This document shows positions 48,166 to 64,000 of a DNA stretch of 64,000 nt, piece after piece (position 1 is the stretch's first letter; each line of letters opens with the position of its first letter). The notes below the pieces were generated by a model. It ran no database searches. It was not told where the DNA came from and saw only the letters and a list, made by a program, of their open reading frames with translations. This DNA comes from Streptomyces sp. MUM 178J (lineage in GTDB: Bacteria > Actinomycetota > Actinomycetes > Streptomycetales > Streptomycetaceae). The translations under genes and the position numbers were made by a program. Where the stretch lies: contig NZ_JADWYQ010000024.1 in NCBI RefSeq assembly GCF_022414575.1, positions 42,350 to 106,349 of the forward strand, read 5' to 3'.

Positions 48166-48891
48166 ATGTCTCGGATCCAGAGCTTCGAGCGTTCCATCGC
48201 TCGCAGCCGCGCATCACTGACCAGGGAAGACCGGCCGGAGACCTTCACGTTGTGCGGGCGCGAGTGGGATCTGCTCGACGAGGTGTTCGCACCGGTCTAC
48301 TCACCGTCGACCGGCATCGCACTGGAGTTCCTCGGCCTCAACCACGAGCCGCCGCTGCCGCACTCCGGTTCCTTCCTGGAGGTCGGGTGCGGCACCGGAG
48401 TGATCGCGGTGATGGCGGCACTGGCCGGATACGAGCGGGTAGTTGCGTCCGATATCAGCCCCCGCGCTGTCGAGAACGCGGCCGTCAACGCCGAACGGCA
48501 CGGCGTCACTGGCCGATTCAGGGCCGTGCACAGCGACCTGTTCTCCGGGCTTGACGACGGCCAGCGCTTCGACACCGTCTTCTGGAGCTCCAACTACGTG
48601 CTGGGCCCGGAACAGTACGAGTACAAGTCCGTGCACGAGCAGGCGTACGTCGACGCCGGCTACCGCACGCACCGCCGGTATCTGGAGCAGGTCCTCAATC
48701 GGCTTGCTCCGGGCGGCTCGGCACTGCTGCACTTCAGCAACCGAGGCGACGAGGCGACCCTGCACCGAATAGCCGAGGAGTGCGGCCGTGAGCTGCGCAC
48801 AGTGCGCGCCGACACCGTCCGCGAGGGCGAGTACGGCGACGACTCGGTCACCCACATGCTCCTTCAGATCGTCCCGGCAGCCACCGTCTGA
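48166..48891 (+). CDS. SAM-dependent methyltransferase (HemK/PrmC-like, altered NPPY motif)
   Basis: 241-aa class I methyltransferase. Motif I FLEVGCGTGVIAVMAAL and motif II VVASDISPRAVENA are strong. Where HemK/PrmC-type N-methyltransferases have N-P-P-Y, this protein has SSNYV (in FWSSNYVLGPEQYEY), so it is a relative with a changed substrate pocket. First plus-strand gene of the cluster, ATG 48166 with GAGGGGGAGGGG, 17 bp before the PabAB gene. Probably methylates the cluster product or an intermediate on N or O; the acceptor is not deducible. Confidence 0.88.
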   Translation: MSRIQSFERSIARSRASLTREDRPETFTLCGREWDLLDEVFAPVYSPSTGIALEFLGLNHEPPLPHSGSFLEVGCGTGVIAVMAALAGYERVVASDISPRAVENAAVNAERHGVTGRFRAVHSDLFSGLDDGQRFDTVFWSSNYVLGPEQYEYKSVHEQAYVDAGYRTHRRYLEQVLNRLAPGGSALLHFSNRGDEATLHRIAEECGRELRTVRADTVREGEYGDDSVTHMLLQIVPAATV

Positions 48892-48908
48892 GCCCAGGAG
48901 AGGTCACC

Positions 48909-51671
48909 GTGCGCACGCTGCTCGTCGACAACTACGACTCGTTCACATACAACCTCTTCCACCAGCTCGCCGAGGTGAACGGCAGGGAGCCGGAGGTCAT
49001 CCGCAACGACGATCCGCGCTGGCGGGCCGGGCTGCTGGCCTCGTTCGACAACGTCGTGGTCTCCCCCGGTCCCGGGCATCCGGGACGGGCGGCGGACTTC
49101 GGCATCTGCCGCGAGATCATCGAGGAGTCCCGGCTGCCGCTGCTCGGCATCTGCCTGGGGCACCAGGGCATCGGGCTGCTCAACGGCGCGGCTGTGGGCC
49201 GCGCACCGGAACCCTTCCACGGGCGGGTGTCCGCCGTGCTGCACGGCGGTGACGGGCTCTTCGCCGGGGTGCCCTCTCCCATGGAGGCGGTGCGCTACCA
49301 CTCCCTCCGGGTGACCGAGCTGCCGCCGGAGCTGGAGGCGGTCGCCTGGACGCCGGACGGGGTGCTGATGGCGCTGCGGCACCGCGAACGGCCCCAGTGG
49401 GGTGTGCAGTTCCACCCGGAGTCGATCTGCTCGCAGTACGGGGTCAGGCTGCTGGGCAACTTCGCGGAGCTGAGCCGGGCGCGGCGGGAGCACCGGGCGC
49501 CGCGGCCGCTTGCCGTCGCGGGGCCGGTCGGCAGCGCACGACCGGTCGGCGACACAGGACCGGTCGGCGAGACACGACCGGTCGGCGACACACGAAGACC
49601 CGTCAGCGCGACGCCTGCGGACACAGGGCCCAGGGGTGCGATGCCCGTCGACGCGACGCCTGCGGACTCGAGCCGGGCGGCGGGCGGCGCCCGGGGTCCG
49701 GCCGCCCGGGCCGCCGCCCCCGCACGGCACATGCCCGCCCCCGCCCGTACGCCTGAGCCCGCGCCCGCGCCTACGCCCGTGCCGGTGACGTCCATGCCGG
49801 ATACGTCCGCGCCGGTGCCAGCCGCACCGGAGACGTCCGCACCGGAAGCGTCCGCGGCGCGGCAGCTGCGGGTGCTCGTCGAGACGCTGCCCACCCGCTG
49901 GGACGGCGAGATCGTCTATGACCGGCTCTTCCGCGGCCGCGACCACGCCTTCTGGCTCGACAGCAGCCGTCCGGACGCCGGGCGCGGCCGCTTCTCCGTG
50001 ATGGGCGACGCCTCCGGGCCGCTGGCCCGGGTGGCCCGCGCCGATGTGTGGAGCGGCACGGTGACGGTGAGGGCCGCGGCCGGCACCGAGATCGTCGCGG
50101 GGCCGTTCCTCGACTGGATCGACCGGGATCTGCGGTCCTGCCGCACCGACGTGCCGGAGCTGCCCTGCGGGTTCGCGCTCGGCTGGGTCGGATATCTGGG
50201 CTACGAACTGAAGGCGGAGTGCGGGGGCGAGGCGGTGCACCGCTCCCAGGACCCCGACGCGACGATGGTCTTCGCGGACCGGGCGGTGGTGTTCGACCAT
50301 GCGACGGGCATGACCTATCTGCTGGCGCTGGCGGAGGAGGGTTCGGCGTCGGGCGGCGTCGCGGCCGCGCGGGCCTGGCTCACCGCGACGGCGGACGCGC
50401 TCGCCGCGTGCGGCGTCCCTCAGGACGGGGGCGAAACCCCCACACCCGCGGCACTCAGCGCGGGCGGCGTCCAACGGCCGGAACCGTCCGCGGGCATGGG
50501 CGTCTCCACGGCGCAGTTGTCGGCGGCCGGCGTGCCGATCGGCCGCACGGGCGGCAGCAGCGGTACACGGGAAGCCCGGCCGAACGCGGCCGCCGCCGGG
50601 GCGGAGGCCGCGGAGGCCGCGGAGGCGCTCCGCGCGGCAGGCGTCGCCGCGTCGGCCTCCGGCGGGTACCAGGCCGACCGGGACGCCGAACCGCTCGGCG
50701 ACACCGGGAGGGCGCTCGACGCCTACCCGGCCGCCCCCACCGCGCCGGACGGCGTCGAGATGGTGCTGCGGCACGATCACGAGGCGTATCTGGAGCTGAT
50801 CGCCGAGTGCCAGCGGCAGATCGCGGCGGGCGAGACGTACGAGGTGTGTCTGACGAACATGGCGGAGGTCCACGGACGTTACGACCCGTGGACCGCCTAC
50901 CGGACGCTGCGGCGGACCAGCCCCGTGCCCTTCGGCGCGCTGTTGCAGTTCGACGGGCTGGCCGTGCTGAGCACCTCGCCCGAGCGGTTCGTCGGCGTCT
51001 CGCGCGACGGGCTGGCCGTATCCGAGCCGATCAAGGGGACCAGACCGCGCGGGCGCACCCCGGAGGCGGATGCGGCGCTCGCCGCGGATCTGCGGGAGGC
51101 GGAGAAGGACCGCAGCGAGAACCTGATGATCGTGGATCTGGTCCGCAACGACCTCGGGCGGTGCGCCGTGCCCGGCTCGGTCGAGGCGGACGAGATCTTC
51201 CGGGTCGAGAGCTATGCCACCACGCACCAGCTGGTGAGCACCGTACGGGCCCGGCTGCGGCCCGGCCTGAGCGCCGTGGAATGCGTGCGCGCGGCCTTCC
51301 CCGGCGGTTCCATGACCGGTGCGCCCAAGAAGCGCACCATGGAGCTGATCGACCGGCTCGAAGGCGGGCCGCGCGGGGTGTACTCGGGGGCGATCGGCTA
51401 CTTCTCGCTCACCGGGGCCGCGGACCTCAGCATCGTCATCCGCACCGCTCTGATCACCGAGGACCGGGTCCGCTACGGCGTGGGCGGGGCGGTGATCGCC
51501 CTGTCCGACCCGGAGGCGGAGTTCGAGGAGACCGCGGTCAAGGCCGCCCCGCTGCTCGCGATCACCGGCGCCGTGTTCCCGCGACGCGACGCCGTGTCCC
51601 CGCACGGCGCGGCGAGCGGGCCGGAGCGGCGGGCGGAGCGGCGGGCGGAACCGCAGCGGATCGCGCTGTGA
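48909..51671 (+). CDS. pabAB: aminodeoxychorismate synthase, fused PabA-PabB
   Basis: 920-aa fusion converting chorismate + glutamine to 4-amino-4-deoxychorismate. N-terminal glutamine amidotransferase (VDNYDSFTYNL; nucleophile in GICLGHQGIG; QFHPES), then the PabB half. The PIKGTRPRG motif with Lys709 marks ADC synthase; anthranilate synthases have PIAGT here. ENLMIVDLVRNDLGR, GSMTGAPKKRTMELID and VRYGVGGAVIALSDPE follow. Two low-complexity inserts are unusual: residues about 198-320 with 18-bp tandem repeats, and about 500-610. GTG 48909. The matching lyase PabC is not in the window, so the fate of ADC is unclear. Confidence 0.92.
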   Translation: MRTLLVDNYDSFTYNLFHQLAEVNGREPEVIRNDDPRWRAGLLASFDNVVVSPGPGHPGRAADFGICREIIEESRLPLLGICLGHQGIGLLNGAAVGRAPEPFHGRVSAVLHGGDGLFAGVPSPMEAVRYHSLRVTELPPELEAVAWTPDGVLMALRHRERPQWGVQFHPESICSQYGVRLLGNFAELSRARREHRAPRPLAVAGPVGSARPVGDTGPVGETRPVGDTRRPVSATPADTGPRGAMPVDATPADSSRAAGGARGPAARAAAPARHMPAPARTPEPAPAPTPVPVTSMPDTSAPVPAAPETSAPEASAARQLRVLVETLPTRWDGEIVYDRLFRGRDHAFWLDSSRPDAGRGRFSVMGDASGPLARVARADVWSGTVTVRAAAGTEIVAGPFLDWIDRDLRSCRTDVPELPCGFALGWVGYLGYELKAECGGEAVHRSQDPDATMVFADRAVVFDHATGMTYLLALAEEGSASGGVAAARAWLTATADALAACGVPQDGGETPTPAALSAGGVQRPEPSAGMGVSTAQLSAAGVPIGRTGGSSGTREARPNAAAAGAEAAEAAEALRAAGVAASASGGYQADRDAEPLGDTGRALDAYPAAPTAPDGVEMVLRHDHEAYLELIAECQRQIAAGETYEVCLTNMAEVHGRYDPWTAYRTLRRTSPVPFGALLQFDGLAVLSTSPERFVGVSRDGLAVSEPIKGTRPRGRTPEADAALAADLREAEKDRSENLMIVDLVRNDLGRCAVPGSVEADEIFRVESYATTHQLVSTVRARLRPGLSAVECVRAAFPGGSMTGAPKKRTMELIDRLEGGPRGVYSGAIGYFSLTGAADLSIVIRTALITEDRVRYGVGGAVIALSDPEAEFEETAVKAAPLLAITGAVFPRRDAVSPHGAASGPERRAERRAEPQRIAL
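49524..49595. repeat. 18-bp tandem repeat, 4 copies, in the PabAB linker
   Basis: Four consecutive ccggtcggcgacacacga-like units, in-frame, encoding PVG(S/D/E)(A/T)(R/G)-type hexapeptides between the amidotransferase and synthase halves. Confidence 0.93.
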
Positions 51672-51679
51672 CACAGCCG

Positions 51680-52801
51680 TCAGCGGTGTTCCCAGGAGTG
51701 CTGGAGGCGCGCGAGCTCCGCCGTCTCCAGCACGCCCGCCAACTCCCCGATGCGCACACCGTGCCGCTCCAGGGCCGCCAGGGCCCGCCGCCCCTCGCCG
51801 TGGGTGTTGAGCAGGGTGTCGCCGAGGAGTTCGAGTTCGTCCGACGCGGTTTCGAGGATGTCCAGGGGCATGGCGATCGCCGTGTTCCAGCCGATGAGGG
51901 AGGCGATATGACGGGAGTGCGGCTCGGTCCACAGCAGCCGCGGCGGACGCGCCCCGCCTGCTCTGAGCACCCGCCACCACTCGCTGGCGAGCCGCTCCTC
52001 CCGTACGCGGAACACCTGGCGCGCCACCGCCACGGCGGCCGTGTCGACGGCCTCGCACGCCCTCGCCCTGCCGCCTGCCTCGCACGCCCTCGTCCTGCCG
52101 GCGGCCTCGCGGGCCTTCGCCGCCGCCGGGCCCCCGGGGATCCCCGGGGTCTCCGAGGCGGGCCCGGCCGCCCTGGCCCCCGCCGCCCCCGGGACCGCGG
52201 CCGGCCCTCCCCTCGCGCCCTGGGGGCGTGGGCGGCCCCCCAGCCGTGCGTTGGCCTCCGAGTCGAGCGGCCCGACCGGGAAGGAGGCCACGCAGGCGAT
52301 CGTCTGCAGGGCGAGACCCGAGGCCAGCGCCCGCTCCATGCCGGAGAAAAAAGCGTCGAGGACCTGTCCGTAGCGCTCCGCGCAGAACACGAGGGCGCTG
52401 TCCACACCGATCCCGTCGGCGACACACGCGCCGAGGGCGACCAGACCGGCGGATGTCGCCGGAATGCGCACCAGCAGATTGGGGCGGCCCACCTCGCGGT
52501 GGATACGGCGCGCTTCCTCGGTCAGCGCCTGCGCGTCATGGGCGATGCCCGGGTTCACGGGCACCGACACATGCCCGTCATGACCCCCGCTCGCCTCGTG
52601 AACGGGCCACAGCGCATCGCAGGCTCTCCGGGCGTCCGCAGGTGAGGAGGGGGGTCTCACCGCGCCGCGGAAGAGCCGTGCATCGGTGAGCTGGTCCGGC
52701 GCACCACCGGTGACTCCGCCCCGCCCGCTGTCGGCGAGCCACGGGGAGACACCCTCGGCGGCCAACCGCTTGAGCAATACGATGGCCGATTCGCTGTTCA
52801 T
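51680..52801 (-). CDS. transaldolase-like protein lacking the catalytic lysine
   Basis: 373 aa, aligned to bacterial transaldolases along its length: HVSVPVNPGIAHDA, PNLLVRIPATSAGLVALG, VDSALVFCAERYGQVLDAF, CVASFPVGPLDSEAN and NTAIAMPLDILETASDE. The Schiff-base Lys of transaldolase (I-K-I-P) is Arg112 here (codon CGC), and the early N-P-T-I-F region is also lost (LTDARLFRG). Residues about 195-255 are Ala/Gly/Pro-rich. It therefore probably does not catalyse transaldolase chemistry. Only minus-strand gene inside the cluster, divergent from DAHP synthase. It may be a pseudoenzyme, or have another role in sugar-phosphate supply. Confidence 0.8.
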   Translation of the reverse strand: MNSESAIVLLKRLAAEGVSPWLADSGRGGVTGGAPDQLTDARLFRGAVRPPSSPADARRACDALWPVHEASGGHDGHVSVPVNPGIAHDAQALTEEARRIHREVGRPNLLVRIPATSAGLVALGACVADGIGVDSALVFCAERYGQVLDAFFSGMERALASGLALQTIACVASFPVGPLDSEANARLGGRPRPQGARGGPAAVPGAAGARAAGPASETPGIPGGPAAAKAREAAGRTRACEAGGRARACEAVDTAAVAVARQVFRVREERLASEWWRVLRAGGARPPRLLWTEPHSRHIASLIGWNTAIAMPLDILETASDELELLGDTLLNTHGEGRRALAALERHGVRIGELAGVLETAELARLQHSWEHR

Positions 52802-53031: not shown

Positions 53032-54201
53032 GTGCAGGAAGTTGACCTCTGGAGGACCCTGCCGGCAGGCCAGCAACCCGACTGGCCGGATGAGAACGTT
53101 CTCGCCACCGTGCGCGAGAGGCTGGCCAGCGCGCCGCCTCTCGTCTACGGGGACGATGTGAGGGAGCTGCGTTTCCTGCTGGCCGCGGCGGCGGCGGGCG
53201 ACCTGCAGGTCATACAGACCGGGGACTGTGCGGAGGACCCGGCCGAATGCACCCCCGGCTATGTGGCGCGCAAGACGGCGCTGCTGGACGTGCTCGCCGG
53301 TGTGATGAAGGCACGTTCGCTCAAGCCCGTGATCCGGGTGGGCAGGATCGCGGGCCAGTTCGGCAAGCCCCGCTCCAAGCCGACCGAGATCGTGGGCGGC
53401 GTCGAACTCCCCTCGTACCGGGGCCATATGGTCAACAGTCCGACGCCGGACCCGGTGCTGCGCCGTCCCGACGCCGAGCGGCTGTGGGCCGGCTACCGGG
53501 CGGCGGCGGTGGTCATGGAGTTGCTCGGCCGGCACGGCGGACGCCGGCCCTTCCCGGCCGAGGCCCCCGTGTGGACCAGCCATGAGGCGCTGCTGCTGGA
53601 CTACGAGGGCCCGATGCTGCGGACCGAGCCGGACGGCGCCCAGCTGCTGACGTCGACCCACTGGCCGTGGATCGGCGAGCGGACCCGTGAGCTGGACGGC
53701 GCCCATGTCGCGCTGCTGGCGTCGGTGTGCAACCCGGTGGCGTGCAAGGTCGGTCCGAGCATCACCGTGTCCGAGCTTGTCGCCCTGTGCGAGCGCCTCG
53801 ACCCCGAGAGGGATCCGGGACGACTCACCCTCATCGCCCGGCAGGGCGCCGGGACCGCGGCCGAGCGGCTGCCGAAACTGGTGCGGGCCGTACGGGAAGC
53901 CGGGCACCCGGTGCTGTGGCTGTGCGACCCGATGCACGGCAACACGGTCAGCGCCCCCGACGGGGTCAAGACCCGCTATATCGCCACCGTCGTCCGCGAA
54001 GTCGAGGAATTCCAGACCGCCGTCATCGAAAACGGCGGCACAGCGGCGGGTCTGCACCTGGAAACCACCCCGGACGACGTCCGCGAATGCGTTCTGGACC
54101 CCTGCCACATCGACGAACTGGGCGAGAAATACACCACTTTCTGCGACCCCAGGCTCAATCCCTGGCAGGCATACGGCGTCGCCGCCGCGTGGCGTGGCTG
54201 A
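53032..54201 (+). CDS. 3-deoxy-D-arabino-heptulosonate 7-phosphate synthase, class II (PhzC-type)
   Basis: First shikimate step: erythrose 4-phosphate + PEP to DAHP. 389 aa, the short class II form as in PhzC, without the regulatory N-terminal extension of the mycobacterial enzyme, so it is likely feedback-insensitive (inference). Metal Cys in QTGDCAED, GRIAGQFGKPRS, RQGAGTAAERLP, CDPMHGNTVS (metal His) and CDPRLNPWQ are visible. GTG 53032 follows GGGAGG. The next gene starts 36 bp downstream. Confidence 0.95.
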   Translation: MQEVDLWRTLPAGQQPDWPDENVLATVRERLASAPPLVYGDDVRELRFLLAAAAAGDLQVIQTGDCAEDPAECTPGYVARKTALLDVLAGVMKARSLKPVIRVGRIAGQFGKPRSKPTEIVGGVELPSYRGHMVNSPTPDPVLRRPDAERLWAGYRAAAVVMELLGRHGGRRPFPAEAPVWTSHEALLLDYEGPMLRTEPDGAQLLTSTHWPWIGERTRELDGAHVALLASVCNPVACKVGPSITVSELVALCERLDPERDPGRLTLIARQGAGTAAERLPKLVRAVREAGHPVLWLCDPMHGNTVSAPDGVKTRYIATVVREVEEFQTAVIENGGTAAGLHLETTPDDVRECVLDPCHIDELGEKYTTFCDPRLNPWQAYGVAAAWRG

Positions 54202-54237: not shown

Positions 54238-55014
54238 ATGGAAATGGAAGGCAAGACCGCACTGGTCACCGGAGCCGCCGGCGGCATAGGCGAGGCGATC
54301 GTCAACGCCCTGGCCGAACGCGGCGCGCGGGTGGCCGCCGTCGACCGGGACGCCGACCGGCTCCGCGAACGCGTCAAGTACGCCGTGGAGCAGGGCTACC
54401 CGGTCCAGTCGTTCCCCGCCGACATCACCTCAAGCACGGAGGTCGAGTCGCTGGTCGACGACGCCGAGGCCCTCATGGGCCCCATCGACTACCTCGTCAA
54501 CGCCGCCGGGGTGCTGCGGCTGGCCGAAGCCCGGAAGCTCACGGACGAGGAGTGGGCCACCACCTTCGCCGTCAACACCACCGGCGTCTTCTTCGTGTCC
54601 CGGGCCGTCGTCAACCGCATGGTGACGCGGCGGAGCGGGGCGATCGTCACCGTCGCCTCGAACGCAGCCGGCACCGCGCGCGTCGAGATGTCCGCGTACG
54701 CGGCCTCGAAGGCGGCGGCGACCATGTTCACCAAGTGCCTGGGCCTCGAGGTGGCCGAGTACGGCATCCGCGCCAACATCGTCGCCCCCGGCTCCACGTA
54801 CACCCCGATGCTCACCTCCATGTGGAAGGACGACAGCGGCGCCCAGGCCTCGCTCGACGGGGTGCCGGAGGCGTACCGCGTGGGCATCCCGCTGCGGAAG
54901 CTCGCCCAGCCCGGGGACGTCGCCGACGCGGTGGTGTTCCTGCTGTCGGACAAGGCCGCGCACATCACGATGCACGACCTGACGGTGGACGGAGGTGCGG
55001 CGCTCGGTGTCTAG
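54238..55014 (+). CDS. 2,3-dihydro-2,3-dihydroxybenzoate / 2,3-dihydro-3-hydroxyanthranilate dehydrogenase
   Basis: 258-aa EntA/DhbA-type SDR that aromatises a dihydrodiol. Cofactor loop TGAAGGIGE, Asp36 region [10 protein letters not shown] (NAD preference), catalytic Ser141, Tyr154 and Lys158 (YAASK). PhzD/PhzE-like partners follow, so the substrate here is probably 2,3-dihydro-3-hydroxyanthranilate, giving 3-hydroxyanthranilate, rather than the dihydroxybenzoate of siderophore pathways. ATG 54238 has AAGGAGG. The stop overlaps the isochorismatase start by 8 bases. Confidence 0.9.
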
Positions 55015-55777
55015 CACCCTTAAGCAGTCAGGTCGGCAACCGGGTCGGCAGTCAAGCGAGCAGTCAGGGGAGCAGTCGACCCGGCTGCCGAGCCCCGGAA
55101 TCCCCGCGATCAGCCCGTATCCGATGCCGAGCGCCGACGAGCTGCCGGCGAGCACGCCCGCGTGGACGCCGGACCCCGCCCGGACCGTGCTGCTCGTCCA
55201 CGACATGCAGCGCTACTTCCTGGCCCCCTTCCCCGCAGGGCAGCAGCCCGTCACCACGCTGGTGGACAACGCCGCGCGGATACGCGACTGCTGCGCCGCG
55301 CTCTCCGTCCCCGTCGCATACACGGCGCAGCCCGGCGGCATGGACGCGGAGCAGCGCGGTCTGCTGAGGGACTTCTGGGGTCCCGGCATGACCCCGAGCG
55401 CCGAACACCGGCAGGTCGTGGCTCCGCTGGCCCCCGCCCCAGGCGACTGGGTGTTCACCAAGTGGCGCTACAGCGCCTTCCACCGCACCGAGCTGCTCGC
55501 CCATATGCGGGCCGCCGGGCGCGATCAGCTCGTCCTCTGCGGGGTGTACGCGCACGTCGGCGTGCTGATGACGGCCGTCGAGGCGTTCAGCCACGACATC
55601 CAGCCGTTCCTGGTCGCCGACGCCGTCGCCGACTTCAGCCGGGAGGAGCACCACATGGCGCTGCAGTACGCGGCCACCCGCTGCGCCGCCCTGACCACGG
55701 CGGAGGAACTGGTCACCGCCCTGATGGCCGGCCCGCCGTCGCCGGTGGGCGCCGGCTCCCGCAAGGAGGAGTCATGA
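55007..55777 (+). CDS. isochorismatase, PhzD-type (2-amino-2-deoxyisochorismate hydrolase)
   Basis: 256 aa. Hydrolyses the enolpyruvyl ether of ADIC to pyruvate + 2,3-dihydro-3-hydroxyanthranilate. Core is strongly PhzD-like: [19 protein letters not shown], catalytic Asp66 in VHDMQRYF, Lys153 in FTKWRYSAF and [18 protein letters not shown]. Compared with PhzD (about 207 aa), the N-terminus carries an extra 28-residue Gln/Ser/Arg-rich repeat, and the C-terminus about 15 residues. GTG 55007 overlaps the upstream gene; GTG 54995 is also possible. The stop overlaps the next start by ATGA. Confidence 0.93.
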
Positions 55778-57747
55778 CAGAAGACCGCGACCTGCTGGGG
55801 CGGGTGCTCACCGCCGATCCGCCGCCGTTCGCGCTGGTGTACCGCCCCGAGACCACCGGGCCCGGCCGGGTCGATCTGCTGCTCGGCCCGGTCGGCGAGG
55901 TCGACGGCCTCGCCGCACTCCCCCTCCCCGGCCGGGAGGAGCGACGGGAGGTACGGGGCGCGGGACGCGACGCGCAGGACGACGGCGGCGCCCGCCAGGA
56001 CCTGCTCGCGCTCATCCCGTACCGGCAGATCGCCGAGCGCGGCTACGACGCCCCCGACGACGGTGAACCGCTGCTCGCCATGGCCGTCGAGGAGCAGACG
56101 ACGGTGGCGCTGTCGGAGGTGCTGCGCCGCATCCCCGACCTGCCGGTACCGCTCCGCGAGGGCGGCGGCTTCGACGTCGACGACACGGCCTACGCCCGGA
56201 CGGTCCGGGAGGTGATCGCCCAGGAGATCGGCACGGGCGAGGGCGCGAACTTTGTGATGAAGCGGTCGTACGTCGCGGAGATCGCCGACTACTCCGTCTG
56301 CGCCGCGCTGCGCTTCTTCCGGCTGCTGCTGGAGAAGGAGTCCGGCGCGTACTGGACGTTCATCGTGCACACCGGGGACCGCACCTTCGTCGGCGCCTCC
56401 CCCGAGCGGCACATCAGCGTCGCGGGCGGCCGGGCCGTGATGAACCCCATCAGCGGCACCTACCGCTATCCCGACTCCGGGCCCACCCTGTCCGGGGTCA
56501 TGGAGTTCCTCGCCGACCGCAAGGAGTCCGACGAGCTGTACATGGTCGTCGACGAAGAGCTGAAGATGATGGCGCGAGTGTGCGACACCGGCGGCCGCGT
56601 CGTCGGCCCGCACCTCAAGGAGATGGCGCGGCTCGCGCACACCGAGTACTTCATCGAGGGCCACACGACGCGCGATCCGCGCGACATCCTCCACGAGACG
56701 CTGTTCGCGCCGACCGTCACCGGCTCCCCGCTGGAGAGCGCCTGCCGGGTCATCAAGCGGTACGAGCCGGGGGGCCGCGGCTACTACAGCGGCGTCCTGG
56801 CCCTGATCGGCCGGGACGCCGACGACGGCGACACACTGGACTCGGCGATCCTGATCCGCACCGCCGACATCGACGCGGGCGGAACGATGCGGATCGGCGT
56901 CGGCGCGACCCTGGTGCGCCACTCCGATCCCCTCTCCGAGGTCGCCGAGACCCGCTCCAAGGCGGCCGGGCTGCTCGGCGTCCTCGGCGACACCGGGCCG
57001 CGCCGCCTCGGCGGCCACCCGGAGGTGCGGGCCGCGCTGGAGAGCCGCAACGACTCCATCGCGGGCTTCTGGCTGGACGACGTGGCCGGGCGGCTCCGCG
57101 AGATGCCAGGAGTGGCCGGGCGCAAGGTGCTGGTCGTTGACGCGGAGGACACCTTCACCGCGATGCTGGCCCACCAACTGCGCGCGATGGGCGCGCGGGT
57201 GACGGTGCGGCGGTTCGACGAGCCGTACGCCTTCGAACCGTACGAGCTGGTCGTCATGGGACCCGGTCCGGGCGATCCCCGGGAGTCCGGCCACCCCAAG
57301 ATCGCGCACCTGCGGACGGCGATCGACACCCTCCTGTCGTCGCGGCGGCCGTTCCTCGCGGTGTGCCTCAGCCACCAGGTGCTCAGCGCCCGCCTCGGTC
57401 TGGAGGTCCACCGCAGGGCCCACCCCAACCAGGGGGTGCAGCGGGAGATCGACCTGTTCGGGCGGACGGTGCGCGTCGGCTTCTACAACACGTTCGCCGC
57501 GCGCGCCGGCGACGACAAGGCGGAGACGGACGTCGGCGTGGTCGAGGTCAGCCGGGACCGGGCGACCGGCGAGGTGTACGCGCTGCGCGGGCCGGGCTTC
57601 CGCTCCCTGCAGTTCCACCCCGAGTCGGTGCTCACCGAGGACGGCGTCCGCATCCTCGGCGAGGCGCTGACCGGGCTCCTGGAAGGACGGCCGGAAGGAC
57701 ATCCGGAAGAACTGGCGGAAGGACTGGCGGAAGGGCACCTCGTATGA
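55774..57747 (+). CDS. 2-amino-2-deoxyisochorismate synthase (PhzE-type)
   Basis: 657-aa fusion of a chorismate-binding half and a glutamine amidotransferase, making ADIC from chorismate + glutamine. The synthase half shows [28 protein letters not shown] (PISGT, not PIKGT as in ADC synthase) and the [20 protein letters not shown] signature. The amidotransferase half has [17 protein letters not shown] with the nucleophile Cys and [10 protein letters not shown]. No PabC-like lyase activity is expected in this type. A short Arg/Gly/Asp insert lies at about residues 55-70 and an [18 protein letters not shown] repeat at the tail. ATGA overlaps at both ends. Confidence 0.94.
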
Positions 57748-58085
57748 AGGCCGCCGTCGTGTGGTGGGACCTGAAGGACACCGGGCACAGCGCCGAGTCG
57801 CTGCGGGACTTCCTGCGGGACGAGGCGATCGACCGGTTCGCCGGAATCGACGGGCTGCGGCTGAAGTTCTGGATCTCCGACCCGGAGACCGAGCGCTGGG
57901 GCGCGGTGCTGCTGTGGGAGTCGGCCGAGGCGGCGGCCGCGCCGCTGCCCGCACGGGCAGTCGAGATCATCGGGCGGCCGCCCGTCCACGCCACACTGTT
58001 CGACGTGGAGGCGGTGGTGGAGGGCCGGCACTCGGACCCCGACCTGTCGGCCCTGGGCCTGGCCAGATCGGCCGTGGTCCCATGA
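57744..58085 (+). CDS. small YdhR/ferredoxin-fold-like protein in the operon
   Basis: 113-aa soluble protein. A central stretch LRLKFWISDPETERWGAVLLWES and the terminal FDVEAVVEG strand fit the dimeric alpha-beta barrel of YdhR/antibiotic-monooxygenase-like proteins. Function unknown; it could be an accessory oxygenase, cyclase or binding protein. ATGA overlaps join it to the PhzE-like gene before and the shikimate kinase after, so it is expressed in step with them and probably participates in this pathway. Confidence 0.7.
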   Translation: MKAAVVWWDLKDTGHSAESLRDFLRDEAIDRFAGIDGLRLKFWISDPETERWGAVLLWESAEAAAAPLPARAVEIIGRPPVHATLFDVEAVVEGRHSDPDLSALGLARSAVVP

Positions 58086-58606
58086 CCGGCCCGCTGGCGG
58101 TCCTCATCGGGCTGCCGGGCAGCGGCAAGACCACCGTCGGCCGGCTGCTCGCGCGGCGGCTGGGGGCGGACTTCCGCGACACCGACGCCGATGTGGAGCG
58201 AGCCGCCGGGCTCTCGGTCCGGGAGATCCTCCTGGAGCGCGGTGAGGCCGCGTTCCGGGTGCTGGAGCGGGAGGCGGTGCAGCGGGCGCTCGCCGAACAC
58301 CCCGGCGTGCTCGCCGTCGGCGGCGGGGCGGTCCTGGACGACACCACCCAGCGGCGGCTGGCCGGCCATCGGGTCGTCCACCTCCGCGTCGGCGCGGCGA
58401 CCGCGGCGGCCCGGGTGGGCGGCGCCCGCACGCGGCCGCTGCTCGCCGACGACCCGGCGGGCGAACTCCGCGTCCTGGCCGCCGTCCGCCTCCCGATCTA
58501 CGACCGCCTGGCCGCCGCGTGCGTCTGGGCCGAAGGCCGCGGCCCGGAGCGCACGGCGGAGGAGATCGCGGCGCTGCTGCCGGTGGCCGTGGCGGGCGGG
58601 GGATAG
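58082..58606 (+). CDS. aroK: shikimate kinase
   Basis: 174 aa; phosphorylates shikimate at O3. Walker A LIGLPGSGKTTVGR (residues 8-21), DTDADVERAAG (shikimate-binding Asp), EREAVQRALAEH and VGGGAVLDD. The lid Arg region GGARTRPLLADD is intact. It starts ATG 58082 overlapping the preceding stop (ATGA). Likely a cluster-dedicated paralogue that adds to the housekeeping enzyme. Followed by a 538-bp repeat-rich spacer. Confidence 0.95.
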   Translation: MTGPLAVLIGLPGSGKTTVGRLLARRLGADFRDTDADVERAAGLSVREILLERGEAAFRVLEREAVQRALAEHPGVLAVGGGAVLDDTTQRRLAGHRVVHLRVGAATAAARVGGARTRPLLADDPAGELRVLAAVRLPIYDRLAAACVWAEGRGPERTAEEIAALLPVAVAGGG

Positions 58607-59144: not shown

Positions 59145-61334
59145 GTGAGTACCTCATTGGAGACCCCGCTGGAGACCCCGCCCCGCGGCCGCTTCGAGTG
59201 GAGCGAGCTGGACCGGCGCGCCGTGGACGTCGCACGTGCGCTGGCCGTGGATGCCGTGGAGACGGCCGGACACGGCCACCCGGGCACCGCGATGAGCCTG
59301 GCCCCGGCCGCGTATCTGCTGTTCCAGCGGCTGCTGCGGCATGACCCGGCCGACCCCGCGTGGGCGGGCCGGGACCGCTTCGTGCTGTCGTGCGGCCACT
59401 CCAGCCTGACCCTCTACACCCAGCTGTACCTCTCCGGGTACGGCCTGGAGCTCGACGACCTCAAGGCGCTGCGCACCGCGGGGAGTCTGACGCCCGCGCA
59501 CCCCGAGTACGGACACACCCCGGGCGTCGAGACCACCACCGGACCGCTCGGCCAGGGCTTCGGCAACGCGGTCGGCATGGCGATGGCGGCCCGCCGGGAG
59601 CGCGGCCTGTTCGACCCGGACGCGGCGCCCGGCGCGAGCCCCTTCGACCACACGGTGTGGGTGTTCGCCTCGGACGGCGACCTGGAGGAGGGCATCAGCC
59701 ATGAGGCGGGCTCCCTCGCCGGGCACCAGCGGCTCGGCAATCTGGTCGTGCTCTACGACGACAACCACATCTCCATCGAGGACGACACGCAGATCGCCCA
59801 GTCCGAGGACGTGCTCGCGCGGTTCGCCGCGTACGGCTGGCACGTCCAGCAGGTCGACTGGACCGGGAACGGGGCGTACGAGGAGGACGTGCCCGCCCTG
59901 TACGGGGCCCTCGCCGCCGCCCGTGCGGAGACCGGCCGGCCCTCGCTGGTCGCCCTGCGCACCGTCATCGGCTGGCCGTCGCCCGGCAAGCAGAACACCG
60001 GAAAGATCCATGGCGCGGCGCTCGGCGCGGCCGAAGCCGCGGCGACCAAGGCGGCGATGGGGCTGGACCCCGAGGTCGCCTTCCAGATGCCGGCCGACGT
60101 CCTCGCCCACGCACGCCAGGTGACCGAGCGGGCCCGCGACGACCGTGCCGTGTGGGAGAAGCGGTACCGGGACTGGCGTGCCGCCTGCCCGGAGCGGGCC
60201 GCGGAGTTCGACCGCATCTCCGCCCGCGAACTGCCCGAGGGCTGGGCGGCGGCGCTCCCCGTCTTCGAGCCGGGCACTGAAGTGGCGACCCGCAAGGCGT
60301 CCGGGGAGGTCCTCGGCGCACTCGCCTCCGTACTGCCCGAACTGTGGGGCGGCTCCGCCGATCTGGCCGAGTCGAACAACACCACCATGAAGGGCGAGCC
60401 GTCCTTTGTCCCGGAGGAGCGGGCGACCGCCGCCTTCCCCGGCCACCCCTACGGCCGCACGCTGCACTTCGGCATCCGCGAGCACGCCATGGGCGCGATC
60501 CTCAACGGCATCGCCCTGCACGGCGGCACCCGCCCCTACGGCGGCACGTTCCTCGTCTTCTCCGACTACATGCGCCCGGCGGTGCGGCTCGCCGCCATGA
60601 TGCGACTGCCCGTCACCTACGTGTGGACGCACGACTCGATCGGCCTCGGCGAGGACGGCCCGACCCACCAGCCCGTCGAGCATCTGTGGTCGCTGCGCTC
60701 CATCCCCGGTCTGGACGTCGTGCGCCCCGCCGACGCCAATGAGACGGCGGTCGCCTGGCGCACCGTGCTGGAGCACGCCGACCGCCCCGCCGGCCTGTGC
60801 CTGAGCCGGCAGAGCCTGCCGGTGCTGGACCGGTCCCCCGACTCGGGCGTGGAGTCCGCGGAGGGCACGGCGCGCGGCGGCTACATCCTGGCCGAGGCGT
60901 CCGGCGGCATCCCGGAGGCGATCCTGATCGCCACCGGCAGCGAGGTGCACATCGCGCTGGACGCCCGGCGCATCCTCCAGCGCGACGGCGTCCCCACCCG
61001 GGTGGTGTCGATGCCGTGCCTGGAGTGGTTCGACGAGCAAGGCCAGGAGTACCGGGACCGGGTGCTGCCGCCCGCGCTGCGCGCCCGCGTCTCCGTCGAG
61101 GCGGGCTCCGTGATCGGCTGGCACGCGCTGGTCGGCGACGCGGGGCACACGGTCGGCCTGGACCGGTTCGGCGCATCGGCCTCGTACCGGCAGCTGTACG
61201 AGCAGTACGGCTTCACGGCGGAGCGGGTCGCCGCGGCCGCCCGCGCGAGCGTGACACGGCAGCGGGACGCCCGCCGGCGCGACGCCGACCGGGACGGACG
61301 GCTGGCGAACCCGCTGCGCCGGGGGCTGGCATGA
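59145..61334 (+). CDS. tkt: transketolase
   Basis: 729-aa ThDP enzyme that makes erythrose 4-phosphate from hexose/triose phosphates and so feeds DAHP synthase. Full length: GHGHPGTAMSLAP, ThDP-binding SDGDLEEGISHEAGSLAG to LYDDNHISIEDDTQ, His-rich TRPYGGTFLVFSDYMRPAVR, and C-domain GWHALVGDAGHTVGLDRFGAS. GTG 59145 is chosen because the upstream reading is Pro-rich noise; AAGGAG is 13 bases upstream. Stop overlaps aroA by ATGA, so both are cotranslated. Confidence 0.95.
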   Translation: MSTSLETPLETPPRGRFEWSELDRRAVDVARALAVDAVETAGHGHPGTAMSLAPAAYLLFQRLLRHDPADPAWAGRDRFVLSCGHSSLTLYTQLYLSGYGLELDDLKALRTAGSLTPAHPEYGHTPGVETTTGPLGQGFGNAVGMAMAARRERGLFDPDAAPGASPFDHTVWVFASDGDLEEGISHEAGSLAGHQRLGNLVVLYDDNHISIEDDTQIAQSEDVLARFAAYGWHVQQVDWTGNGAYEEDVPALYGALAAARAETGRPSLVALRTVIGWPSPGKQNTGKIHGAALGAAEAAATKAAMGLDPEVAFQMPADVLAHARQVTERARDDRAVWEKRYRDWRAACPERAAEFDRISARELPEGWAAALPVFEPGTEVATRKASGEVLGALASVLPELWGGSADLAESNNTTMKGEPSFVPEERATAAFPGHPYGRTLHFGIREHAMGAILNGIALHGGTRPYGGTFLVFSDYMRPAVRLAAMMRLPVTYVWTHDSIGLGEDGPTHQPVEHLWSLRSIPGLDVVRPADANETAVAWRTVLEHADRPAGLCLSRQSLPVLDRSPDSGVESAEGTARGGYILAEASGGIPEAILIATGSEVHIALDARRILQRDGVPTRVVSMPCLEWFDEQGQEYRDRVLPPALRARVSVEAGSVIGWHALVGDAGHTVGLDRFGASASYRQLYEQYGFTAERVAAAARASVTRQRDARRRDADRDGRLANPLRRGLA

Positions 61335-62611
61335 CCACCGCCGCGGCGCCCGTCGTCGCCCGCGTACCCGGTTCGAAGAGCATCACCAACCGCGCGCTGC
61401 TGCTGGCCGCCGCCGCGTCCGGCGCCAGCCGGCTGTACGCGCCGCTCGTCAGCGAGGACACGATCGCCTTCCGCACGGCGCTGGCCGGCCTCGGCTACCG
61501 CATCGTCAGCGGCCCCGGCGACGCCTGGTGGGAGGTGACCGGCAAGGGCCACGGCCCGGTCGGCGGCGGCCGTGTGTGGTGCGCCGACGCGGGCACCGCC
61601 GCGCGCTTCCTGCCGCCGTTCGCGGCGACCGGCAGCGGGGACTTCCTCTTCGACGGCTCCGACCAGCTGCGGGCCCGCCCGCTCCAGCCGCTGGCCGACG
61701 CGCTGACGCGGCTCGGCGTGAGCGTGTGGACCGAACCGTGCGGCGGGCTGCCGCTGCGGGTGGCGGCCGCGGGGGCCTGGGGCGGCGAGCTGTTCGTGGA
61801 GGGCGGGCTCAGCAGCCAGTATCTGAGCGGTCTGCTGATGGCTGCCCCGCTGCTGCGGTCCCCGCTGACCGTGCGGTTCCGGGATCTCGTCAGCCGCCCG
61901 TACGTCGACATGACCGTCGCGCTGATGCGGGAGTTCGGGGCCAAGGTCGTCGAACGCCCCGACGGCCCCGTCGAGATCGCGGCCGACGGCTACTGCGCCA
62001 CCGGGCTGCGGGTGGAGCCGGACGCCTCCGCCGCCTCGTATCTCTTCGCCGCGGCGGCCGTCACCGGGCGGAGCGTCACCGTGCCGGGCCTGGGGACGGA
62101 CAGCATCCAGGGAGACCTGCGCTTCACCGATGTGCTGGCCCGGGCCGGCGCCCATGTCGAGGTGGGCGAGGAGGGCACGACCGTCACCGGCGCACCGGAC
62201 GGACGGCTGCGCGGCGGCTTCGAGGTCGACATGGGCGATATCTCCGACACCTTTATGACGTTCGCCGCGATCGCCCCGCTCGCCGACGCCCCCGTCACCG
62301 TCCACGGCATCGGACACGCCCGGCTGAAGGAGTCCGACCGGATCGCGGCGGTCGCGCAGAACCTCGCCGGCTGCGGGGTGCCCACCGAGGTCGGCCGGGA
62401 CTGGATCACCGTCCACCCCGCCGCGCGCCCGCACGGGGCGCGGATCGCCTGCCACCGGGACCACCGGATCGCGATGGCCTTCTCGGTGCTCGGGCTGCGG
62501 GTCCCCGGGATCACCCTCGACGACCCGCGCTGCGTGGCCAAGACGTTCCCCGGCTTCCGCGCGGAACTGGGCCGCCTCTTCCCCGATCAACCTGCTCCCA
62601 CCCGCGTTTGA
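61331..62611 (+). CDS. aroA: EPSP synthase (3-phosphoshikimate 1-carboxyvinyltransferase)
   Basis: 426 aa; transfers enolpyruvyl from PEP to shikimate 3-phosphate. PGSKSITNRALLLAAAASG at residues 14-32, DAGTAARFLPPF in place of the usual NAGTA, SSQYLSGLLMAAPLL, and DHRIAMAFSVLGLR at the C-terminus. The D for N change in the DAGTAAR motif may be of interest but is seen in other Streptomyces enzymes (from memory). ATG 61331 overlaps the transketolase stop. Confidence 0.95.
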   Translation: MTTAAAPVVARVPGSKSITNRALLLAAAASGASRLYAPLVSEDTIAFRTALAGLGYRIVSGPGDAWWEVTGKGHGPVGGGRVWCADAGTAARFLPPFAATGSGDFLFDGSDQLRARPLQPLADALTRLGVSVWTEPCGGLPLRVAAAGAWGGELFVEGGLSSQYLSGLLMAAPLLRSPLTVRFRDLVSRPYVDMTVALMREFGAKVVERPDGPVEIAADGYCATGLRVEPDASAASYLFAAAAVTGRSVTVPGLGTDSIQGDLRFTDVLARAGAHVEVGEEGTTVTGAPDGRLRGGFEVDMGDISDTFMTFAAIAPLADAPVTVHGIGHARLKESDRIAAVAQNLAGCGVPTEVGRDWITVHPAARPHGARIACHRDHRIAMAFSVLGLRVPGITLDDPRCVAKTFPGFRAELGRLFPDQPAPTRV

Positions 62612-62652
62612 GAACCGTTCAAGACCCGTTTGAGAAAGGACCCGAGACCACC

Positions 62653-63939
62653 ATGGCTCACACGATCGTCGCCGGCGGCGGCATAGGCGGACTGGCCACG
62701 GCCATCTCCCTCGCACGGCACGGCCACCGCGTCACCGTCCTGGAGCGCCGGGACGCCTTCACCGAGCTCGGCGCGGGCATCCAGCTCGGCCCCAACGCCT
62801 TCCATGCGATGGACCGCCTCGGCGTCGGCGCCCAGGTGCGCGCCCGCGCCGTCTACATCGACGAGCTGCGCTTCATGGACGGCACCACCGGGCAGCGGGT
62901 GGCCTCCATGCCGCTGACCGACGCCTACCGGGAGCGGTTCGGCAACCCGTACGCGGTGGTGCAGCGCATGGACCTGTACGAGCCGCTGCTGGAGGCATGC
63001 CGCCGCCACCCGGACGTCGAGCTGCGCGTCGACTGCGCGGTGACCCGGTACGAGCAGACCGCGGGCGAGGTCACCGCCGTCCTGGCGAGCGGCGAGCGGG
63101 TCACCGGCACCGCGCTGATCGGCGCGGACGGCATCCGCTCGACCGTGCGGCGGCAGCTCGTCGGCGACGGCGACCCGCGCGTGTCCGGCCACACCATCTA
63201 CCGCTCGGTGATCCCGATGGAGGAGGTGCCGCAGGAGCTGCGCTGGAACACGGTCACCCTGTGGGCCGGCCCCAAGTGGCACTTCGTGCACTATCCGATC
63301 GGCGGCGGCGCGTACTTCAACCTGGCCGCCACCCGCGACGACGCGGCCGCGGAGGCGCTCGTCGGCAAGCCCGCGGCGCGTGACCACGTGCTGAACGAGT
63401 TCCCGGAGCTGGGCGAGACGGCCCGGCGGCTGCTGGAGCTCGGCCGCGACTGGAAGGCCTGGGTGCTGTGCGACCGCGACCCGGTCGACGGCTGGACGGA
63501 CGGACGGGTCGCCCTCCTCGGCGACGCCGCCCATCCGATGCTCCAGTACGCGGCGCAGGGGGCCTGCCAGGCCCTGGAGGACGCCGTCGTCCTCGGCGAA
63601 CTGCTCGGCGGCAGCGGCGCGGACGAGGTGGTGCAGCGGCTGGAGAAGTTCAACGCCGAGCGGCGCGAACGCACCGCGCGCACGCAGCTCGTCGCCCGTG
63701 AGATGGGCCGCCAGCTCTACCACCCGGCGGGCGCGGCGGCGCGGGAGCGCAACGCGATGCTGTCCTCGCTGTCGGCTCAGGACATGTACGACAAGGTGGC
63801 CTGGCTGCACGGCGACTGCGACTTCGTCGCGGACGCCGGGGTCCGTGCCGGGGCCCGTGCTGCCGAGGCCCGCGCTGCCGGGGCCCGTGCTGCCGAGGCC
63901 CGCGCTGCCGGGGCCCGTGCTGCCGGGGCGGCGCGTTGA
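62653..63939 (+). CDS. FAD-dependent aromatic monooxygenase (salicylate/3-hydroxybenzoate-hydroxylase type)
   Basis: 428-aa class A flavoprotein hydroxylase. GGGIGGLATAISL (Rossmann, residues 8-20), LGAGIQLGPNAFHAMDRLG as in 3-hydroxybenzoate 6-monooxygenase, LIGADGIRSTVR (DG motif), and VALLGDAAHPMLQYAAQGACQALEDA (GD motif). The expected role is hydroxylation, possibly decarboxylative, of an aminohydroxybenzoate such as 3-hydroxyanthranilate. A tail of 15-residue repeats (RAAEARAAGARAAEA) follows the fold. ATG 62653; the stop overlaps the next start (TTGA). Confidence 0.93.
   Translation: MAHTIVAGGGIGGLATAISLARHGHRVTVLERRDAFTELGAGIQLGPNAFHAMDRLGVGAQVRARAVYIDELRFMDGTTGQRVASMPLTDAYRERFGNPYAVVQRMDLYEPLLEACRRHPDVELRVDCAVTRYEQTAGEVTAVLASGERVTGTALIGADGIRSTVRRQLVGDGDPRVSGHTIYRSVIPMEEVPQELRWNTVTLWAGPKWHFVHYPIGGGAYFNLAATRDDAAAEALVGKPAARDHVLNEFPELGETARRLLELGRDWKAWVLCDRDPVDGWTDGRVALLGDAAHPMLQYAAQGACQALEDAVVLGELLGGSGADEVVQRLEKFNAERRERTARTQLVAREMGRQLYHPAGAAARERNAMLSSLSAQDMYDKVAWLHGDCDFVADAGVRAGARAAEARAAGARAAEARAAGARAAGAAR
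63851..63925. repeat. 30-bp tandem repeat, 2.5 copies, in monooxygenase tail
   Basis: gggcccgtgctgccgaggcc + cgcgctgccg repeated at 63851-63880 and 63881-63910, with a half copy after. Encodes an Ala/Arg/Gly/Glu-rich extension beyond the monooxygenase fold. Confidence 0.92.
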
Positions 63940-64000
63940 GCAGGTTGCGCTGGCTGACCGCGGGGGAGTCGCACGGACCCGCACTGGCGGCGACGCTGGA
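63936..64000 (+). CDS. aroC: chorismate synthase (N-terminus only)
   Basis: TTG 63936, overlapping the monooxygenase stop (TTGA), opens a frame reading SRLRWLTAGESHGPALAATL to the window end. The start of chorismate synthases is LRWLTAGESHGPAL, so the gene is confidently identified from 21 residues. It would convert EPSP to chorismate and complete the visible supply pathway. Confidence 0.9.
   Translation, partial: MSRLRWLTAGESHGPALAATL

Follow-up and report, generated by a model that had tools for sequence, protein, structure and literature searches.

A Streptomyces gene cluster predicted to form a hydroxylated 3-hydroxyanthranilate and accompanied by an accessory 4-amino-4-deoxychorismate synthase

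Introduction

Why should a single Streptomyces locus encode two enzymes that aminate chorismate, one of the PhzE type and one a fused PabAB? Both are present side by side, as originally predicted, in the stretch of DNA analysed here (the window, 64,000 nucleotides), whose last base is the end of contig C24, with no sequence further right. The original prediction read them as parts of one operon-like region that aminates chorismate at C2 and C4 on the way to one product, an interpretation that our analysis supports in part.

Results

The genes do not form one operon-like region. The methyltransferase and PabAB genes make up one short unit, and a minus-strand transaldolase-like gene parts them from the right-hand operon, which spans 53032 to the contig end. 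Beyond the genes listed originally, this operon encodes shikimate kinase, transketolase, EPSP synthase, a NosA-like protein, an FAD hydroxylase and the start of aroC. It opens with a class II DAHP synthase (53032..54201, + strand; PF01474, 408.6 bits; TIGR01358, 396.5 bits, under its cut-off of 614.7). The three enzymes from which a route to 3-hydroxyanthranilate (3-HAA) had been predicted follow on the same strand, and each is present: an EntA/DhbA-type dehydrogenase, the proposed DHHA dehydrogenase (54238..55014; TIGR04316, 347 bits against a cut-off of 300; PDB 2fwm); a PhzD-type isochorismatase, predicted to convert ADIC to DHHA, whose best relative is PhzD (55124..55777; PDB 1nf9, E 8.4e-80) and which keeps the VHD and KWRYSAF stretches; and a PhzE-type ADIC synthase with PISGT (Ser227) and a fused GATase (55774..57747), whose best solved relative is PhzE 3r74 (E 6.9e-211; 705 bits over residues 4-636). 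Next comes a NosA/YdhR-like protein of 113 residues (57744..58085, +; PDB 4za1, E 3.4e-20), by sequence of the same family as NosA of nosiheptide. Unlike that NosA gene, the one in the window adjoins PhzE, and elsewhere in the genome the domain is joined to PhzF: one 392-residue protein (G000, contig C32) consists of a NosA-like N-terminus followed by PhzF. NosA acts in nosiheptide biosynthesis through enamine chemistry; the protein encoded here probably acts at the level of DHHA. Queries for PhzF (one), PhzB (one) and PhzG (two) gave no tblastn match in the window at E 1e-3, which agrees with the predicted absence of such genes and led us to reject the visible part as a phenazine cluster; the PhzF, PhzB and PhzG queries each match 24-27 of 157 loci at 1e-10.

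The rest of the operon, all on the + strand, is given over to chorismate supply and one oxygenation. It comprises a shikimate kinase (58082..58606; PF01202, 128.6 bits, below the NCBIfam equivalog cut-offs), a transketolase for erythrose-4-phosphate supply (59145..61334; TIGR00232, 753 bits against 682), EPSP synthase, AroA (61331..62611; TIGR01356, 357.7 bits against 287), and an FAD monooxygenase of the 3-hydroxybenzoate 6-hydroxylase kind (62653..63939; NF006021, 488.3 bits against 459; PDB 4bjy). The TTG start of chorismate synthase (aroC) overlaps the stop of the monooxygenase gene; its first 21 codons (63936..64000) are the last 65 bases of the window, where the contig end cuts the gene. 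Hydroxylase followed by aroC also occurs in L012, L015, L021, L022 and L142. Beyond chorismate synthase no assembly enzyme was seen in two relatives, and fuller relatives have activation/reduction-like and N-acetyltransferase-like genes near the cluster.

The fused PabAB (48909..51671, +; TIGR00553, 368.8 bits against a cut-off of 328.4) is an ADC (4-amino-4-deoxychorismate) synthase, as predicted. It matches best the 702-residue '4-amino-4-deoxychorismate synthase' of PDB 8hx6 (E 3.8e-209). PIKGT with Lys709 is preserved, as are the Cys and His-Glu motifs of the GATase, and the protein carries two long Ala/Pro/Gly-rich inserts. A fused PabAB with PIKGT is likewise found in 8hx6 and in the PAPA-like set of L144, but the window, unlike these, has no match to chorismate-mutase-like, prephenate-dehydrogenase-like or PabC proteins; PabC, PapB-like and PapC-like queries (one each) gave no tblastn match there. 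Nor did tblastn find a dedicated ADC user in the window, where we also identified no gene of folate metabolism or of the methyl cycle. The genome has a separate pabB-pabC pair on contig C21, so the cluster PabAB is probably unneeded for basal folate. This counters the view of PabAB as just the folate gene, although folate supply is still the favoured use.

To the left lies a further set of genes. A GAF/PucR-type transcriptional regulator (45969..47879, - strand; PF01590, PF13556, PF17853) is divergent from the methyltransferase-PabAB unit. The methyltransferase (48166..48891, +) is a class I SAM enzyme of HemK/PrmC-like kind, as judged from PDB profile matches and an alignment of 13 sequences, in which W-x-S-N-Y/F-V or similar replaces the NPPY-type motif of such enzymes. 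The transaldolase-like protein, TalX (51680..52801, -; PF00923), has a low-complexity insert and, aligned to transaldolase chains 3r5e and 7bbx, an Arg at the position of the catalytic Schiff-base Lys; among 17 TalX-like rows this position is R in 9, K in 6 and another residue in 2. By this residue the window's TalX does not classify as an active transaldolase. The idea that TalX and transketolase jointly give erythrose 4-phosphate is weakened likewise, TalX lacking the Lys in the window and often travelling with the GAF/methyltransferase set.

Upstream of the regulator is an IS701-like (DDE_5) protein (44492..45640, +; NF033540, 280.7 bits against a cut-off of 150; PF13546). On our own assignment of the DDE motif, the catalytic Asp pair (first DD) is absent from all 16 aligned relatives, of which 13 adjoin the regulator, and is kept in three control records annotated IS701; a single Asp of the pair remains in a fourth control, from S. 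finlayi, whose annotation reads simply 'transposase'. The gene is single-copy (next best 34%), and of 21 inverted-repeat pairs of 12-26 nt around it none was accepted as a terminal repeat. The missing catalytic residues speak against an active IS701 insertion sequence, and the protein is probably domesticated. A transposase relative has thus lost its catalytic residues, yet remains beside one regulator.

We compared the locus with relatives in which gene boundaries came from a codon-usage caller, which gave some wrong starts (aroC in most loci), some missed or split genes and one doubtful 821-residue frame in L014/L148; names assigned by eye there were taken from the first residues of translations. 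The order GAF regulator, methyltransferase, PabAB, TalX (-), DAHP synthase, EntA, PhzD, PhzE, NosA recurs in L013, L014, L016 and G031 (L142). We surveyed 80 PhzE loci, part of them truncated where a contig ends. EntA is found in 45, PhzF in 22, both in 1 and neither in 14; the near-exclusion of EntA and PhzF supports the prediction that DHHA is directed to 3-HAA rather than to phenazines. The hydroxylase, at 50% identity or more, occurs in 18 of the 80, 16 of these with EntA. EPSP synthase is found in 13, transketolase, whole or as a fragment, in 8 and shikimate kinase in 5. Because relatives thus also have aro genes next to PhzDE, their presence here is not the accident of a housekeeping neighbourhood that would have undone the original prediction.

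The left-hand set (dead IS701-like transposase, GAF/PucR regulator, methyltransferase, PabAB and often the transaldolase-like protein) has a distribution of its own. It accompanies 3-HAA clusters and phenazine clusters, and occurs in two genomes with no PhzE in view; in G015 the complete set adjoins metK, metF and a PfkB-family kinase. Trees of PabAB, the GAF regulator, the methyltransferase and PhzE give the same three clades across 3-HAA, EntA-less and phenazine-type loci (support for the 3-HAA clade being only 0.78 in the methyltransferase tree), and the role of PabAB therefore looks independent of the product. PabAB is kept where EntA is missing (L017, L036, L067). L012, L024, L030 and L155-L157 have comparable 3-HAA genes but no PabAB next to them, so its function there is dispensable or done elsewhere. 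The methyltransferase, at 49% identity or more, was found in 16 of 101 genomes of a genus sample; within 25 kb of it lie PabAB in 9, PhzE in 7, both in 4 and neither in 4. By these counts the link between the accessory set and PhzE is only partial.

Discussion

How might these genes work together? We propose, at about an even chance, that the cluster supplies its own chorismate for a hydroxylated 3-HAA, and that the accessory PabAB serves PABA and folate supply rather than amination of the 3-HAA ring at C4. Transketolase and the class II DAHP synthase would feed the shikimate pathway, and shikimate kinase, EPSP synthase and the cluster's own chorismate synthase would complete chorismate. PhzE would then give ADIC and PhzD would give DHHA, which the EntA-type dehydrogenase would aromatise to 3-HAA, the NosA-like protein probably assisting at the DHHA (enamine) step. 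If the para-hydroxylation rule of 3-hydroxybenzoate 6-hydroxylases applies to the FAD monooxygenase, an OH would be added para to the 3-OH to give 3,6-dihydroxyanthranilate, or an amino-hydroquinone if the enzyme decarboxylates; it could be decarboxylating or use another substrate. The end product would be a small aminohydroxybenzoate or quinone, with the final steps encoded beyond the contig or elsewhere; an epoxyquinol of the LL-C10037-alpha type was considered as product and set aside, no paper in the literature search having named it. PabAB would form ADC, which the housekeeping PabC could turn into PABA, most likely sustaining folate and one-carbon supply during chorismate drain and methyl-group use.

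The right-hand genes are closest to known 3-HAA systems. The ring-A set of paulomycin, pau17-21 (PMC4425429), comprises a 3-hydroxybenzoate 6-hydroxylase, PhzE, PhzD, an EntA-type enzyme and DAHP synthase, all found here in one cluster; the window adds shikimate kinase, transketolase, EPSP synthase, aroC, the NosA-like gene and the PabAB set. Among the window proteins scanned, which were part of the total, we recognised no second monooxygenase, sugar or glycosyltransferase genes of the paulomycin type, and the contig ends at 64000. In limazepine biosynthesis, Lim3-Lim6 follow the chorismate/DHHA route to 3-HAA with DAHP synthase, DHHA dehydrogenase, PhzD and ADIC synthase, all shared with the window, and the same paper (PMC5958127) cites the route for tilivalline, paulomycin, diazepinomicin, calcimycin, caboxamycin and A33853. 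Beyond these enzymes the window has a hydroxylase and genes for chorismate supply, and no assembly gene of the NRPS or CoA-ligase type was recognised among the proteins scanned. No cluster combining PhzE, EntA and PabAB was found described in the open-licence PMC papers surveyed.

What, then, does the second amination serve? Probably no single ring receives both aminations: PabAB tracks a separate set, is lacking beside some 3-HAA genes and elsewhere occurs without PhzE in view, and this part of the original prediction is not supported. PABA might instead be a second building block, perhaps hydroxylated or methylated by the cluster methyltransferase, and be joined to hydroxylated 3-HAA in a product of two aminobenzoid units. 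We regard this as possible but rather doubtful. Of 12 long-PabAB genomes (among 14 chosen via PhzE loci), 11 have PabAB no more than 20 kb from PhzE, and in the even genus sample of 101 it is near PhzE in 3 cases besides our own genome against 0.19 expected; AMP-binding (LuxE-like), aldehyde-dehydrogenase-family (LuxC-like) and N-acetyltransferase genes stand near the G003 cluster. In G065 and G072, PabAB adjoins a 4-hydroxybenzoate-3-monooxygenase-type (PobA-type) enzyme, with the methyltransferase nearby, an arrangement that points to a building-block use of PABA in those genomes, although the regulator, TalX and IS701-like genes are missing. Yet the accessory set also goes with phenazine and EntA-less clusters, the window has no PabC, and PabAB is dispensed with beside comparable 3-HAA genes. 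An improbable further scheme has PhzD and the EntA-type enzyme accept ADC too, so that PhzE would lead to 3-HAA and PabAB to 4-amino-3-hydroxybenzoate. P. aeruginosa PhzD is reported to hydrolyse 4-amino-4-deoxychorismate (PMC5368275, citing Parsons 2003), and the cluster PhzD with its conserved stretches, in a window where no dedicated ADC user was found, fits this; however, such promiscuity does not show physiological use and may just as well point to PabAB making up for ADC that PhzD consumes, and PabAB is also conserved at loci lacking EntA.

The predicted likeness to nybomycin fares worse, and a nybomycin/streptonigrin-type diaminobenzenoid pathway seems very improbable. DAHP synthase, an anthranilate-synthase-type (chorismate-aminating) enzyme and an isochorismatase are common to the window and nybD/E/F of the nybA-Z cluster, but the published gene table (PMC6265801) shows a single aminating enzyme, with neither an ADC synthase nor any gene annotated as EntA-type, and a family scan of part of the window proteins recognised no counterparts of nybA, nybC, nybK, nybM or nybN. 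Membership in that type was rejected on the gene table. Least credible of all is a phenazine cluster with its assembly genes past the contig end: L021 and L022 do share the run of shikimate kinase, transketolase, EPSP synthase, hydroxylase and aroC, together with PhzF, PhzB and PhzG, but the window has EntA, which occurs without PhzF in 44 of 45 loci, and L012 and L015 have no PhzF.

PABA and folate supply is the role of PabAB that we favour, at confidence evenly balanced. A folate-only PabAB had been named as a finding that would overturn the original prediction; the pabB-pabC pair speaks against a basal folate need, while a folate/one-carbon role is the best-supported use. The position of PabAB beside dihydropteroate synthase in G017 backs this role weakly, because the regulator, TalX and the IS701-like gene are missing there and the methyltransferase is 13 kb off. 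More tentatively, and in our estimate unlikely, PabAB may belong, rather than to one half of a single pathway, to a portable accessory unit for PABA and one-carbon supply that joins varied chorismate-draining clusters. Such a unit, with the methyltransferase and a degenerate transaldolase, would carry a regulator pair of its own, in which the domesticated transposase partners the GAF protein in binding DNA.

Reading the ADC synthase as metabolic support within a recurrent gene set replaces the double-amination reading, and a family of unassigned Streptomyces clusters can now be placed on the 3-hydroxyanthranilate map, its members carrying shikimate-pathway genes and often a second chorismate synthase. 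The contigs of G000, G009 and G010 all end within aroC, a coincidence for which this finding offers a likely reason.

Gene content of the window and the predicted 3-hydroxyanthranilate route

The window (positions 42350-106349) closes contig C24 of the MUM 178J genome (G000; 6.63 Mb, 127 contigs); the contig's last base is window base 64000. The enzymes named in the original prediction are all present, with slightly sharpened coordinates: PabAB (48909-51671; PIKGT, Lys709), an EntA-type dehydrogenase (54238-55014), PhzD (55124-55777) and PhzE (55774-57747; PISGT, Ser227). We also found genes that it had left unnamed, encoding a class II DAHP synthase, a NosA-like protein of 113 residues, a shikimate kinase, a transketolase, an EPSP synthase and a flavoenzyme (62653-63939) exceeding the cut-off for the 3-hydroxybenzoate 6-monooxygenase type. 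Four-base overlaps occur at each junction from PhzD through PhzE and NosA to the shikimate kinase, between the transketolase and EPSP synthase genes, and between the flavoenzyme gene and aroC. The left-hand unit comprises an IS701-like gene (44492-45640), a GAF/PucR regulator (45969-47879, minus strand), a HemK/PrmC-like methyltransferase (MT), PabAB and a transaldolase-like gene (TalX, minus strand). The window PabAB has 920 residues versus about 700 in its relatives, owing to two Ala/Pro/Gly-rich inserts, and the flavoenzyme has a C-terminal tail of Ala/Arg-rich repeat.

Judged by sequence, DAHP synthase, the EntA-type enzyme, PhzD and PhzE constitute the route from chorismate through DHHA, the PhzD product, to 3-hydroxyanthranilate, a known kind of pathway. 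Two of its enzymes, Lim6 and Lim5, are demonstrated in vitro according to PMC5958127, which also assigns the route to paulomycin, diazepinomicin and benzoxazoles. The paulomycin ring-A genes pau17-21, as described in PMC4425429, encode the same four functions plus a 3-hydroxybenzoate 6-hydroxylase, and the window likewise adds its flavoenzyme of that type. The observation behind the original prediction is confirmed, and its interpretation is half right: the 3-hydroxyanthranilate route is supported, but a place for PabAB in the product ring is not. The cluster varies on the known kind in its chorismate supply, its duplicate aroC, the hydroxylase and the PabAB set.

We surveyed the best 80 of 575 confirmed PhzE loci, some of them truncated where a contig stops. 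A relative of EntA at ≥50% identity occurred in 45 and PhzF in 22; one locus had both and 14 had neither. At the same identity threshold the hydroxylase was found in 18 loci, of which 16 also had EntA and 2 had PhzF. A NosA-like protein was present in 19 of the 80, together with EntA in 8 and with PhzF in 11, and in none that lacked both. In addition, a single 392-residue protein on contig C32 of G000 fuses a NosA-like N-terminus (37% identity to the window protein) to PhzF. This co-occurrence and the fusion suggest that the NosA-like protein acts on DHHA or its successor.

Chorismate synthase at the contig end

The final 65 bases of the window (63936-64000) encode LSRLRWLTAGESHGPALAATL, the N-terminus of a chorismate synthase whose TTG start overlaps the flavoenzyme stop and whose frame runs to the contig end. 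An aroC gene occupies the equivalent place in L012, L015, L021, L022 and L142. A chorismate synthase search gave no match in G000, and the control genomes matched in 14 of 14 cases. Of 16 individually searched genomes, seven (G001, G004, G005, G007, G008, G011 and G031) hold a second copy or strong second fragment, six (G002, G003, G006, G012, G013 and G014) a single copy and G000 none; in G009 and G010, a contig end cuts both copies off after about 29-37 codons, a situation resembling that in the window. The short-read assemblies of G000, G009 and G010 thus appear to be interrupted by their aroC copies; for the window, two near-identical copies that broke the assembly are very probably the reason why it stops.

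Six genomes have at least two complete copies, and in each of them a DNA tree (L116-L141; supports 0.94 to 1.0) placed the cluster aroC with the other copy or copies of that genome, with pair identities of 98.0% in G001, 97.8% in G008, 90.1% in G031, 87.8% in G004, 86.5% in G005 and 83.8% in G007. The pattern suggests that aroC underwent gene conversion or was recruited repeatedly. The case is strong in two genomes and only moderate in the remainder, since by plain identity the cluster copies of G005 and G007 are slightly nearer another genome's copy.

Judged by eye from the first residues of translations, no assembly enzyme lies past aroC in L012 or L015; KAS III-like and N-acetyltransferase-like genes lie left of the DAHP synthase gene in L015. 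Fuller relatives depart from this picture: G003 has genes for an N-acetyltransferase (PF00797), a LuxE-like AMP-binding protein and a LuxC-like member of the aldehyde-dehydrogenase family, and in G005 genes resembling those for KAS III, a carrier protein, LuxE and LuxC were recognised by eye.

Recurrence and possible role of the PabAB gene set

The five-gene set (IS701-like, GAF, MT, PabAB and TalX) is visible in L013, L014, L016, L036, L067, L104, L142, L152 and L153. It lacks an adjoining TalX in L031, L105, L106 and L107, and lacks PabAB in L012 and L154-L157, where in L155-L157 the other four genes lie beside 3-hydroxyanthranilate genes. In 14 genomes chosen via PhzE loci, a sample skewed towards PhzE and partly towards MT/GAF, 12 had a long PabAB, which in 11 lay no more than 20 kb from PhzE; that of G001 lies away from PhzE, next to a PAPA-like set (by eye).

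Across 101 evenly chosen genus members, our own included, at least 47 gave a PabAB-like match (52 rows among about 150 matches listed, some with open frames of just 441-588 residues, perhaps unfused), 35 had PhzE above 700 bits and at least 20 had both. The two lay within 25 kb in at least five; excluding our own, at least four compare with 0.19 expected (Poisson 5e-5, relatedness ignored), and when G016, where a PAPA-type set adjoins phenazine genes, is left out, the remaining three give 0.001 (relatedness again ignored). MT at ≥49% identity was found in 16 of the 101, seven others having only a 42-45% relative; among the matches listed, these 16 had PabAB within 25 kb in at least nine, PhzE in seven, both in at least four and neither in four. 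MT serves better as a marker than PabAB. Trees of PabAB, GAF, MT and PhzE drawn from 12 loci share three clades, namely the 3-hydroxyanthranilate type, an EntA-less type, and L031 with the phenazine loci (supports >0.96, except 0.78 for the 3-hydroxyanthranilate clade in the MT tree); L104 and L105 shift position between trees. The matching clades indicate that the set has long travelled with PhzE across different products.

What, then, might PabAB contribute? Its co-carriage with PhzE across different products argues for a general role of the set rather than one in a single product's ring. The genome has a separate pabB-pabC pair, and no PabC, PapB- or PapC-like match was found in the 64-kb window. 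In G015 (contig C465, L152; genome completeness just 79%), the whole set sits among one-carbon genes, its neighbours being metK, metF and a gene for a PfkB-family kinase, with no PhzE in view. Taking the spread over products together with these observations, we favour PABA/folate supply, at about an even chance. Standing against it are the 3-hydroxyanthranilate clusters without PabAB and the context in G065 and G072, where MT and PabAB alone accompany genes of the PobA-type hydroxylase and luciferase-like-monooxygenase types. Pseudomonas aeruginosa PhzD is reported in PMC5368275 to cleave ADC, the PabAB product, as well. Two further roles are therefore conceivable: PabAB may make good the ADC that PhzD consumes, or this ADC may be converted by PhzD and the EntA-type enzyme to 4-amino-3-hydroxybenzoate.

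The G015 arrangement looks like a methyl-cycle supply set. G060 carries the whole set on a 21.6-kb contig, with PhzE not in view. In G017 (contig C8, L151), PabAB adjoins a dihydropteroate synthase gene (TIGR01496, above cut-off), with MT 13 kb away; this synthase shows similarity to Sul-type variants too, with scores under the respective cut-offs.

The IS701-like and transaldolase-like proteins and other PhzE clusters

In 22 of the 24 loci that have the GAF/PucR regulator (the window, L012, L013, L014, L016, L021, L022, L031, L032, L034, L036, L052, L053, L067, L104, L105, L142, L152 and L154-L157), an IS701-like gene is convergent with the regulator and no more than 1.2 kb from it; in L153 the distance is 3.5 kb, and L017 ends without the gene in view. 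The first catalytic Asp pair, as we place it, is absent from all 16 aligned IS701-like proteins (13 beside the regulator, 3 from other PhzE loci) and present in three annotated IS701 transposases; an S. finlayi 'transposase' retains one Asp. The gene is single-copy in G000, and its product is probably a domesticated transposase. At the position that we take to be that of the Schiff base, the window TalX has Arg, and 17 TalX-like rows have Arg in 9, Lys in 6 and other residues in 2.

Altogether, G000 gave four PhzE-type matches, of which one, more distant, lies beside a DAHP synthase gene on contig C43. The second cluster (C32, L101), which carries the NosA-PhzF fusion, has PhzB, PhzG, mevalonate- and prenyltransferase-like genes (by eye), and its product is possibly a prenylated phenazine. 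The third (C52, L100) has PhzF-, PhzD-, PhzB- and methyltransferase-like genes. Each of the EntA-less loci L017, L019, L036 and L067 contains a transketolase fragment, about 150-170 residues long and judged by eye to be C-terminal; in L017, L019 and L067 a second transaldolase-like gene adjoins it.
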